The position numbers and the translations under genes were made by a program. From contig NZ_JACHTM010000001.1 in NCBI RefSeq assembly GCF_015354055.1, forward strand, positions 620,001 through 684,000: 64,000 bases of DNA, in the 5' to 3' direction. The notes beneath the pieces are model-generated. The model ran no database searches and was not told the origin of the DNA. It saw only the letters and a list, made by a program, of their open reading frames with translations. The DNA comes from Thermaurantiacus tibetensis. Lineage in GTDB: Bacteria > Pseudomonadota > Alphaproteobacteria > Sphingomonadales > Sphingomonadaceae. Every line of letters starts with the position of its first letter. Positions within the stretch are counted from its first letter, which is position 1. Below are positions 5,769 through 9,948 of the stretch, piece after piece.

Positions 5769-5822
5769 GGGCCGGCCCGCTAGCCTCTCCGGCACGGGAG
5801 CGCAAGGGAGTTAAAGTTTCGT

Positions 5823-7388
5823 TTATGTCCTTTTGCGGCCGTTCACCGCGGCGAGGGCGAGGAGCAGCAGCGCGAGGGCGGCCGGGATGGCCTGGCCGAA
5901 CCGGGCGAAGGGCGTCGGCGGCAGGGGCTTCGCCAGCGGTTCGAGGAGGGTGCCAGCGGTGTCGGGAGGCAGCGCAGCGGTCACGCGGCCGCGCGCGTCG
6001 ATGACGCCGGTGACGCCCGTGGGCGTGACCCGCACGACGGGAAGGCCTTCCTCGATCGCCCGCAGCCGGGCCAGCGCGAAGTGCTGCGGCGGCCCGGTGG
6101 GGCCGAACCAGGCGTCGGACGAGACCGTGAGGATCAGCTCGGGCCGTTTGCGCCGGTCGACGACGCGGCCGGGGAAGATGATCTCGTAGCAGATGGCGGC
6201 GGCATAGGCGGGGAAGCCCGGCAGCCGGACCGTCTCGGGGCCCGGGCCCGGCCAGAAGTCGAGCGTGCCGGGCACGAGGCGGGCAAGGCCGAGGGGCTCG
6301 GCAATCGCGCGGAGCGGGAGATACTCGCCGCCTGGCACCAGGTGCGCCTTGTCGTAGCGGTGGAGGATTCGCCCGGCCGCGTCGAGCGCGAACAGGCTGT
6401 TGCGGATGCCGACGGCCTCGCCGCGGGGGTCGCGTTCGGCCTTGATGCCGCCTGCGAGCAGCATCGCGCCCGGCGGAAGAGCGCGGGTGACGAGGCGGGC
6501 CACCCAGGGGTTCTCGTCAGGCGGGAACTCGATGGCGCCTTCGGGCCAGACGACGGCAGCAAGCTGCGCGCGTTCCTCGCTCGAAAGGCGGGCGAGCGCC
6601 CGTTCGGTCGTCTCGACATGCGCAAGCAGGTGGCGCTCCGTCCCATTCTCGGCGTGTTTCTCCGCCTGGCTGCTGTTGGGCTGAACGAGCAGGATGTGCG
6701 CCGGCCCCGGGGTCTGCGGCTCGAGGCCGAGACGCAGCAGGCCGGGAGATGCGAGGAGGAGCGCAAGTCCGCCGACAGCCGCTGCGCCGCGCCGGTCGCC
6801 GAGCGCAGCGAGGGCCAGCGCGCCGGCGGCGAGGGCAAGGAGGGCGGAGAGGCCGTCGGCGCCGATCGCGGCGGCGGCGTCGCGGACGCCGGGGATGGGC
6901 AGGAGGGCAAGGCCCGGCGGGTTCCACGGGAAGCCGGTGAAGAGCCAGCCGCGGGCGATCTCGGCGAGGACAAGGGCGCCGGCCCAGGCGAGTGCGAGCG
7001 CCACCGGCGTCCGGCCGAGCGTCCGGGCCGCAAGGGCAGCCACGGCCGGGAACAGGGCGAGGAACAGCGCGAGACCGGCATGGGCGAGGTGCCCGAACCA
7101 GGCCGGCATGGCCGACTGGTAGGTGAAGGCCTTGGCCAGCCAGCCAAGGCCGACGAGGAAGTGGCCGAGGCCAAAGAGGAACCCCGCGCCGAACGCCCGT
7201 GAGGAGGGCAGGCGAACGAGAAGCGCAACGAGAACCGCCTGGCCAAGGAGGGCGGCCGGCCAGGCCTCCCACGGCGGGAAGCCGAGGGCCGAGACGGCGC
7301 CGGCCATGGGAGCGAGAAGCCAGCGGCCGCGTATGAGGAGCCGGTCGGGCGAGCGCGCGGGCGTGGCGGCGGGACGGTGCACGGCCAC
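5823..7388 (-). CDS. lnt: Apolipoprotein N-acyltransferase
   Basis: An integral inner-membrane enzyme that adds the third acyl chain to the N-terminal cysteine of lipoproteins. The 521 residues fit the family: about 200 N-terminal residues carry six to seven hydrophobic spans, a nitrilase-like periplasmic domain covers about 230-490, and a final span precedes the basic end GRKRT. The nitrilase catalytic triad is present as E283 (WPEG), K347 (YDKAHLVPGGEYLP) and C400 (ICYE). The start is GTG at 7388. The gene is divergent from the methyltransferase gene that follows, with 74 bp between starts, and upstream of metK on the same strand. Confidence 0.95.
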   Translation of the reverse strand: MAVHRPAATPARSPDRLLIRGRWLLAPMAGAVSALGFPPWEAWPAALLGQAVLVALLVRLPSSRAFGAGFLFGLGHFLVGLGWLAKAFTYQSAMPAWFGHLAHAGLALFLALFPAVAALAARTLGRTPVALALAWAGALVLAEIARGWLFTGFPWNPPGLALLPIPGVRDAAAAIGADGLSALLALAAGALALAALGDRRGAAAVGGLALLLASPGLLRLGLEPQTPGPAHILLVQPNSSQAEKHAENGTERHLLAHVETTERALARLSSEERAQLAAVVWPEGAIEFPPDENPWVARLVTRALPPGAMLLAGGIKAERDPRGEAVGIRNSLFALDAAGRILHRYDKAHLVPGGEYLPLRAIAEPLGLARLVPGTLDFWPGPGPETVRLPGFPAYAAAICYEIIFPGRVVDRRKRPELILTVSSDAWFGPTGPPQHFALARLRAIEEGLPVVRVTPTGVTGVIDARGRVTAALPPDTAGTLLEPLAKPLPPTPFARFGQAIPAALALLLLALAAVNGRKRT

Positions 7389-8209: not shown

Positions 8210-8293
8210 GCCGCCTCCGCCCTGCCGCCTCCGCCCTGCCGCCTCCGCCCTGCCGCTTCCGCCCCGCCGCCTCTGCCCCGCCGCCTCCTTCCC
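8210..8293. repeat. 14-bp tandem repeat, six copies
   Basis: Six back-to-back 14-bp units of gccgcctccgccct lie between the convergent ends of the methyltransferase gene and ctrA. Units 1-3 (8210-8251) are identical; units 4-6 carry one to three changes each. The unit is not a multiple of three and sits outside any supported gene, so it is a non-coding minisatellite. Copy number probably varies among strains, which is inference. Confidence 0.9.
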
Positions 8294-8362: not shown

Positions 8363-9235
8363 TCAGGCCCTGGTCTCGTTGGGGATGGTGTAGCCGCGGC
8401 CCCAGACCGTCTCGATGATCGGCGGGCAGCCGGCCTCCGAGAGCTTGCGCCGGAGCTTGCAGATGAAGACGTCGATGATCTTCATCTCCGGCTCGTCCTG
8501 GCCGCCGTAGAGGTGGGCGAGGAACATTTCCTTGGTGACGGTGGTGCCCCGGCGCATGGCGAGGAAGGCGAGGCACTGGAATTCCTTGCCGGTGAGCGGC
8601 ACGGGGGTGCCGGCGATGCTCGCGCGCCGGGCGGCGAGGTCGATCGAAAGCGGGCCCACCTCGATCGTGGACGGGGCGGCTGCGCGCGAGCGGCGGATGG
8701 CGGCGTTGACTCGGGCGAGGAGCTCGTCGGGGTGGAAGGGCTTCACGACATAGTCGTCGGCGCCTTCCTGGAAGCCCTCGAGCTTGACCGCCAGCGAGCT
8801 TTCGCCGGAGAGGATGATGACGGGCATGTCGATCCGGCCCGCGCGCAGGCCCTTCAGCACCGTCTGGCCCGGGAGGTCGGGGAGCGTGAGGTCGAGGAGG
8901 ACCGCGTCGAAGCGGTAGGCGCGCGCAAGCTCGAGCGCATCCTCGCCGAGCGCGGTCACGTAGACGGTGAAACCGGCGCCCTCGAGCATGCGGGCGAGCA
9001 CGTCGGCGAGCAGCCGGTCGTCCTCGATGAGGAGCAGGCGCGACGTGCGCGGGCTCTCGCCGTCGGTGCTGCCGGCCTGGGGAAGGGCCGTAGGACGCGT
9101 CGGGGCGGGCGCTGACAGCATGTCAGGCGCCAGCATCCGGTGACCGGCCTCTGGCGCGCTCAGCTGCGGCGCGGTGTCGGCGAGCTGCCCGACAGTGGGG
9201 GTGGCGGGGTCGTTGCCGCCGATGCGTCCCATCAT
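8363..9235 (-). CDS. ctrA: Cell-cycle response regulator CtrA with N-terminal extension
   Basis: CtrA is the alphaproteobacterial OmpR-type master regulator that, when phosphorylated, controls replication, division, motility and related genes. The C-terminal DNA-binding domain is unmistakable: LTGKEFQCLAFLAMRRGTT, TKEMFLAHLYGG, KIIDVFICKLRRKL and ETVWGRGY. The receiver domain begins at about residue 66 (SRLLLIEDD), with the phospho-acceptor at D115 (LLDLTLPD) and the conserved lysine in VVKPFHPDE. Canonical CtrA starts at the receiver domain. Here about 65 Pro/Ala-rich residues precede it, with no start codon close to the domain. The ATG at 9235 has a GGAGAC ribosome site; the next in-frame ATG (9121) would still leave a 27-residue extension. 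It lies 49 bp downstream of sciP on the same strand. Confidence 0.93.
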   Translation of the reverse strand: MMGRIGGNDPATPTVGQLADTAPQLSAPEAGHRMLAPDMLSAPAPTRPTALPQAGSTDGESPRTSRLLLIEDDRLLADVLARMLEGAGFTVYVTALGEDALELARAYRFDAVLLDLTLPDLPGQTVLKGLRAGRIDMPVIILSGESSLAVKLEGFQEGADDYVVKPFHPDELLARVNAAIRRSRAAAPSTIEVGPLSIDLAARRASIAGTPVPLTGKEFQCLAFLAMRRGTTVTKEMFLAHLYGGQDEPEMKIIDVFICKLRRKLSEAGCPPIIETVWGRGYTIPNETRA

Positions 9236-9240
9236 GCCAT

Positions 9241-9275
9241 GTCTCCGGGTCGTCGTCTCCGGGTCGTCTCCGGGG
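9241..9275. repeat. Short direct repeats in the ctrA leader
   Basis: GTCTCCGGG occurs three times (9241, 9255, 9266), twice followed by TCGTC. Read on the minus strand this gives three GGAGAC blocks in front of ctrA, and the nearest serves as its ribosome site. The tandem Shine-Dalgarno-like blocks fill most of the 49-bp sciP-ctrA gap. Confidence 0.7.
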
Positions 9276-9284
9276 GGTCCGGCG

Positions 9285-9701
9285 TTACGCCTGTAGAGAC
9301 GGCCGCGGCGCGGATCCGTTCAGCTTCGGCTTGACCCGGTCGAGTTCGCGGTAGAGCTGGATTCGCGTGACCCGCAGGCCGGGAACGCCAGCGCGGTCCA
9401 CCGCCTGCTGCCAGAGTTCGAGCTCCTCGGGCGAGAGCCCGTAGCGGGCGCAGGCCTCGCTCGCCGTGAGAAGGCCGCCGTTCACGGCTGCCAGCACCTC
9501 GGCCTTGCGGCGAACCACCCAGCGCGTGGTGTTGGGCGGCGGCAGGTCGGCGAGCGTGATCCGCGAGCCCCCCGGTCCTGGAACCCAGGCCGGCCGGCCG
9601 CCATCATGGGGGGCGTCGTCGCGGGCTCCTGCGTCCCTGTCTGCAACGGGGCGTCGAATCGCCTGCCAGTCCTTCACCTCGCCACGATGATGTGTCGTCA
9701 T
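9285..9701 (-). CDS. sciP: SciP (DUF1153) small CtrA inhibitory protein, N-terminally extended
   Basis: SciP is a small helix-turn-helix protein that in Caulobacter binds CtrA and blocks activation of its promoters. The diagnostic core is present at residues about 38-118: [43 protein letters not shown] and [12 protein letters not shown]. The protein is 138 residues, compared with about 90 for the Caulobacter protein; the extra is about 37 polar N-terminal residues and a short tail. The ATG at 9701 is well supported by GGAGGT seven bases upstream, and no other start lies closer to the core. The gene is directly upstream of ctrA on the same strand, so inhibitor and target are likely co-transcribed. 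Confidence 0.9.
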
Positions 9702-9869
9702 GTCGCGTACCTCCGCGCAGTCGGTTTCAGCCTGCGCCCGGGCGGGAGTGGCCGGGGTGCCCAGCTGCATCGCGGCAAGGGGTTGTCGGCACGAGTCCGC
9801 CTCCCCATCTGCTCCGCCAGCCGCCGAGCGTTCCGACTCGCCCGAACGCGACGCCGTCGGTCGCAGGAA

Positions 9870-9885
9870 CGGCACAGTTGTGCCG
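9870..9885. promoter_or_regulatory. 16-bp palindrome between sciP and mnmA
   Basis: CGGCACA-GT-TGTGCCG is a perfect inverted repeat with 7-bp arms. It lies in the 247-bp divergent region between sciP and mnmA, 64 bp before the mnmA start and 169 bp before sciP. Its symmetry is that of a dimeric regulator's operator. I cannot name the regulator. No clear TTAA-N7-TTAA CtrA box was found in this region. Confidence 0.45.
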
Positions 9886-9948
9886 GTCTTGAGCCGACCT
9901 GCTCTGAAGGTTAGCCCATTCAGCGTGAACGAACTGCAAACTTCTGTC

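Follow-up and report, generated by a model that had tools for sequence, protein, structure and literature searches.

CtrA is the paradigm of a master regulator held jointly under phosphorylation, proteolysis and inhibition. The CtrA proteins of Caulobacter and Sinorhizobium are OmpR-type regulators controlled by ClpXP. In Caulobacter, alteration of the degron residues in the C-terminal tail stabilises CtrA, and in S. meliloti stabilised CtrA is lethal, according to the available text of PMC4433202. The tandem PAS region of Caulobacter CckA is reported to integrate two signals (PMC4853435, available text). In a comparative survey of the CtrA system (Brilli et al. 2010, PMC2877005, available text), Sphingomonadales often possess CpdR and RcdA while DivK is absent or anomalous in them, and some alphaproteobacterial clusters without RcdA-CpdR are already known.

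The CtrA protein described here resembles those of Caulobacter and Sinorhizobium in its receiver and winged-helix order and in its CtrA-specific DNA-binding sequence. It differs from them by about 65 extra N-terminal residues and a short C-tail, and neither RcdA nor a stand-alone receiver of the CpdR/DivK type was detected in its genome. Loss of the adaptors with retention of CtrA is shared with Rhodobacterales cluster B and Rhodospirillales; altered CtrA or SciP ends are not described for these clusters in the available text of PMC2877005.

Genetic organization of the sciP-ctrA locus

The window, a stretch of 64,000 nucleotides analysed as a whole, is part of contig C10 of genome G000 (2.75 Mb, 100% complete), whose closest named relatives, identified by contig search at 68-87% identity, are Sphingomonadaceae MAGs and Sandaracinobacter neustonicus. 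The features of the locus are listed in Table 1. The regulator has CtrA as its best NCBIfam model, with 276.6 bits against 152 for the second model, a score below the 350-bit cut-off of this Rhodobacter-tuned model. The upstream gene product matches the NCBIfam SciP equivalog (NF051866) over its full length with 121 bits (cut-off 100), is longer than the family at both ends, and carries the DUF1153 match at residues 36-118. Both genes are single-copy, since one SciP match was found in G000 and the second-best CtrA match is only 36% identical. The original prediction of a same-strand tandem with N-terminal extensions on both proteins and well-placed ribosome sites agrees with these assignments: 49 nt separate the sciP stop from the ctrA ATG, residues 1-35 of SciP precede the DUF1153 match, residues 1-65 of CtrA precede the receiver domain, and GGAG lies 7 nt upstream of the ctrA ATG and GGAGGT upstream of that of sciP. 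The prediction did not include the C-terminal extension of SciP or the truncation of the CtrA C-tail.

A GC-rich 14-bp tandem repeat of 5.6 copies (8210-8288) is located between ctrA and trmJ, which converge on it. GANTC is strongly depleted across the whole window (80 sites, 282 expected from shuffles), and two of the sites fall between mnmA and sciP, at 9793 and 9835. Such depletion is typical of CcrM-methylating genomes.

Table 1. Features of the sciP-ctrA locus in the window and of two related loci
Feature	Position	Strand	Basis or remark
sciP (DUF1153, CtrA inhibitor), 138 aa	9285..9701	-	Pfam, NCBIfam, genome search
SciP N-terminal extension, residues 1-35 before DUF1153 match	9597..9701	-	Pfam, sequence comparison
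SciP C-terminal extension, residues 119-138	9288..9347	-	sequence comparison
sciP-ctrA spacer, 49 nt, three GGAGAC units, no TTAA	9236..9284	-	sequence scan
ctrA, 290 aa	8363..9235	-	Pfam, NCBIfam, genome search
CtrA N-terminal extension, residues 1-65, predicted disordered	9041..9235	-	sequence comparison, AlphaFold
CtrA receiver domain, residues 68-177, aspartate in LLDLTLPD kept	8705..9034	-	Pfam
CtrA DNA-binding domain (Trans_reg_C), residues 209-283	8387..8611	-	Pfam
Truncated CtrA C-tail, 8 residues after WGRGY	8366..8389	-	sequence comparison
mnmA-sciP divergent intergenic region	9702..9948	.	position; putative promoter by inference
16-bp palindrome CGGCACANNTGTGCCG	9870..9885	.	looser form CGGCACANNNGTGCCG
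CckA of window genome, 424 aa	L233 1043-2314 (G000:C11)		HisKA-HATPase-receiver
CtrA-like gene without receiver, 120 aa	L131 2915-3274 (G065)		14 nt after sciP

Distribution and ancestry of the gene pair

A set of 59 relatives, counting G000 itself, has SciP in 53 genomes, CtrA in 56 and both in 51. The two genes lie at most 350 nt apart in six of these 51 (G000, G001, G003, G004, G007 and G024, places compared by eye). They are located at two contig ends in G002, which is 82% complete, and 1.2 kb apart in G021; in the other genomes of the 51 they are farther apart or on separate contigs. A wider set of 249 family genomes contains SciP in 237 and CtrA in 235. In stretches fetched from seven genera (g1, g116, g59, g4, g21, g84 and g93), sciP stands directly before ctrA at 19 of 19 loci. 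The mnmA gene is upstream and divergent in every fetched stretch that reaches it; the G215 stretch and two of the three G166 ctrA stretches gave no mnmA. Convergent trmJ follows downstream where the fetched stretch extends that far, and was not seen beside ctrA in G024. G166 has three complete ctrA paralogues (L140, L141 and L142), with sciP in the fetched stretch of L140 only.

The pairs of g4, g21, g84 and g93 share gene order, strand and the divergent mnmA with the window, but differ from it by an AT-rich spacer, a CtrA beginning at the receiver, and long C-tails. All 11 relatives checked in these four genera combine adjacency with a CtrA that starts in the ordinary way (for one of them, G185, the contig ends before the CtrA C-tail). 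The sciP-ctrA tandem beside mnmA is ancestral in one sphingomonad clade. Because of this ancestry, adjacency alone is no mark of rewiring, and it is ruled out as the novelty of the locus. The novelty lies instead in changes within a subclade, which concern the C-tail, RcdA, the spacer, CckA and the CtrA of G065. Across the seven genera, the protein ends are ordinary in most cases.

This subclade consists of G000-G004 (g1), G128, G189 and G237 (g116, Sandaracinobacter-like) and G065 (g59). The CtrA sequence of Sandaracinobacter neustonicus is the same as that of G189. In a tree built from MnmA and TrmJ of 18 genomes, g1, g116 and g59 are split from g4, g21, g84 and g93 with 100% support. Within the subclade, a position of g59 as sister to g1+g116 has a support of only 56. 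G001 is placed with g116 at a support of 89, and g1 is therefore not a clean group in this tree. Given the fully supported split, the losses described below are most reasonably treated as one event that took place on one branch, and the whole set of subclade genomes may go back to that single event.

The spacer and transcription of ctrA

The subclade spacers range from 14 to 86 nt without any TTAA (8 of 8 loci), whereas those of the relatives measure 129-162 nt and contain one to three TTAA (11 of 11). In the subclade the spacer is cut down to the length of a ribosome site, and the window lacks the usual spacer between sciP and ctrA. TTAA, which constitutes the CtrA half-site, was also found two to four times within 150 nt upstream of non-adjacent sphingomonad ctrA genes, in 21 of 21 tested. 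A scan gave no terminator-like site between sciP and ctrA, a scan for sigma-70-like promoters and terminators returned none, and no CtrA box (TTAAN7TTAA, one mismatch allowed) is present near the pair, the single match being at 5811-5825. As the spacer is short and free of TTAA, transcription of ctrA probably depends on the promoter of sciP; with no spacer of its own left, ctrA would most simply share a transcript with sciP. The co-expression that had been predicted is thus made likely by the short spacer without a terminator-like site, as judged from sequence.

The divergent region between mnmA and sciP is the probable promoter of the sciP-ctrA unit. Its RNA fold has a z-score of -1.1. The looser form of the palindrome in this region, CGGCACANNNGTGCCG, occurs between mnmA and sciP in all five g1 genomes and is absent from the other 268 of 283 loci; the palindrome is a possible operator.

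The CtrA C-tail and proteolysis adaptors

A total of 64 distinct CtrA sequences, derived from 101 frames, were compared, nine from the subclade and 55 from others. After the WGRGY motif, 3-8 residues remain in all nine subclade proteins, against 12-23 in all 55 others. With 8 residues, the window CtrA lacks the long C-tail with a small-residue end that would serve as the degron. An Ala end is found in 40 of the 55 other proteins, and four of the nine short tails are still Ala-ended (RA, EA, EA and DA).

RcdA was detected by Pfam PF07323 in 16 of 28 genomes searched and in none of the nine subclade genomes. A profile of 14 sequences from relatives likewise found it in none of the nine, with best E-values of 0.05 or worse, and matched in G007, G133, G024, G166, G090 and G018. 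The same profile gave no clear RcdA in G099 (best E 0.0035) and none in the four genomes of the small-genome genus g25, where SciP is also missing. G215 (88% complete) had no RcdA match either. Ordinary CtrA tails are kept in G099 (13 residues) and G028 (15 residues) despite the lack of a clear RcdA; hence RcdA loss alone is not diagnostic, and tail loss and RcdA loss are not strictly linked. The missing C-tail together with the undetectable RcdA makes it very likely that the lineage has left timed-degradation control. ClpXP may still act on the subclade CtrA through another signal, in view of the four Ala-ended short tails.

No stand-alone receiver of the CpdR/DivK type is present among the 19 receiver domains of the window genome. 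An ordinary sphingomonad, G018, has two stand-alone receivers which we take to be DivK-like from features of DivK sequences; no CpdR was recognised in its set of receivers (E up to 1e-14). In view of the survey text cited above, loss of DivK within the Sphingomonadales is not new.

The phosphorelay and a receiver-less CtrA

The CckA proteins of G000, G003 and G189 contain 372-424 aa and consist of HisKA, HATPase and receiver only. Their best models are CckA, matched over these three domains and aligned only from about position 298 of 678 in the model, and neither a PAS match nor a hydrophobic window was found in them. Inspection by eye revealed no PAS-like frame upstream of CckA in G000 and G003. 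G007 CckA retains a single PAS region and likewise lacks a hydrophobic window, and G018 CckA has kept PAS in a sequence that, as available, stops short of the N-terminus. ChpT, searched by PF10090, was not detected in eight of the nine subclade genomes, in all four g21 genomes and in G099, but this model is too weak in the clade, as g21 and G099, with ordinary CtrA, also score none. A divergent ChpT homologue was found in G004 only. FliF is present in all nine subclade genomes, which rules out missing flagella as the cause of the rearrangement.

G065, a single-contig genome of 3.36 Mb, possesses a CtrA-like protein composed of a leader of 40-odd residues and the CtrA DNA-binding domain, corresponding to positions 128-222 of the NCBIfam CtrA model. 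No CtrA match was obtained in this genome at E 1e-58, and RcdA was not found. Lacking the receiver, this CtrA would not be phosphorylatable. An assembly fault behind the missing receiver, seen in one genome, is unlikely. None of the 17 receiver-bearing places of G065 (E up to 1e-14) matches the window CckA, at a cut-off of E 1e-20 (1e-15 for places in L169-L198 and L279-L283) which a receiver-less CckA would escape.

Proposed control of CtrA in the subclade

From these sequence comparisons, we propose, with a probability of about 0.58, that the subclade gave up the timed destruction of CtrA and that CtrA output now depends on phosphorylation and on SciP made together with it. In this scheme, ctrA would be transcribed with sciP from the promoter beside mnmA, and the shared transcript would yield both proteins in a fixed ratio. 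CtrA would not be removed by the RcdA-dependent ClpXP route, and its output would be governed by phosphorylation, with the receiver aspartate kept, and by the co-made SciP. Once the proteolysis interface had become dispensable, the N-terminal extension could be tolerated as a flexible tail or could act as a mild tether or shield. A more far-reaching form, which we regard as tentative, treats CtrA as a ratio device, made from one message with SciP and free of RcdA-ClpXP clearance; in G065 SciP would then be the main brake on an unphosphorylatable CtrA.

The rewired circuit suggested originally is retained mainly on other grounds, namely the lost C-tail, the RcdA that was not found, the lost spacer, the PAS-less CckA and the receiver-less relative. 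Adjacency alone is no sign of it; the extension at the CtrA N-terminus does exist, with weak conservation and predicted disorder. If the proposal of abandoned timed destruction is true, a lineage stripped of the proteolysis layer offers a natural experiment on which control layers are dispensable, with one member, G065, apparently without the phosphorylation layer as well. The presence of Sandaracinobacter neustonicus in the subclade makes the idea testable in culture. A literature search combining CtrA with these genera gave nothing relevant among the matches listed, and a search for a CtrA N-terminal extension gave, among the matches listed, no paper with both CtrA as its main subject and the extension.

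Terminal extensions and alternative explanations

SciP is lengthened at both ends in g1 and g116. Before RWV it has 59 residues in the window, 42-73 in all eight g1/g116 genomes and 19-36 in a comparison set of 11 genomes to which G065 belongs; the corresponding counts behind the final conserved YR are 20, 20-30 and 6-12. The start, frame and extension of CtrA recur in the same eight genomes, which speaks against chance. The extension is identical at 24/62, 19/62 and 28/67 positions among pairs of G000, G002 and G003, and the core at 198-211/222. AlphaFold, run with a shallow five-sequence alignment (mean 71.5, pTM 0.47), gave pLDDT of 35-41 over residues 1-60 and folded receiver and DNA-binding domains. 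The extension is, on this model, probably a flexible tail under weak constraint and is the least informative of the changes; being weakly conserved and predicted to be disordered, it allows no turnover effect to be demonstrated from it.

The fast evolution of the CtrA extension, the lengthened SciP ends and the receiver loss in G065 could reflect neutral drift in a high-GC lineage with a non-essential or relaxed CtrA, in which the changed termini bring no new control logic. We consider this unlikely, because the CtrA core is strongly conserved, with changes mostly at third positions (20, 7 and 66 at positions 1, 2 and 3 in 222 codons, G000 versus G003), the DNA-binding domain is retained even in G065, and the sciP-ctrA pair is syntenic in seven genera.

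Somewhat less probable still is that the extension serves as a replacement degron or adaptor-binding tail through which ClpXP or a different protease continues to degrade CtrA, recognising it at its N-terminal end in place of the C-tail. The extension and the short C-tail do occur together in all eight g1/g116 CtrA proteins, and both the G000 and the G003 protein begin with MMGR. However, the low identity of the extension relative to the core, substitutions spread nearly evenly over its codon positions (25, 24 and 34), the predicted disorder, and the short C-tail of G065 without a receiver-linked extension all argue against such a role.

The least probable explanation is an annotation artefact with translation from a non-standard codon beside the conserved core, which would suit the poor conservation of the extension; a mis-called ctrA start codon is rejected on account of the 12-51 codons without ATG, GTG or TTG before the core in all eight receiver-bearing subclade proteins (28 in the window, in line with the predicted lack of a nearby start), and GGAG precedes the upstream ATG in both G000 and G003. 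The start codon of the other CtrA proteins lies at most two codons from the core in 54 of 55, and the 55th (L291), missed by the search pattern, starts with RMRVLQIEDD as read by eye.
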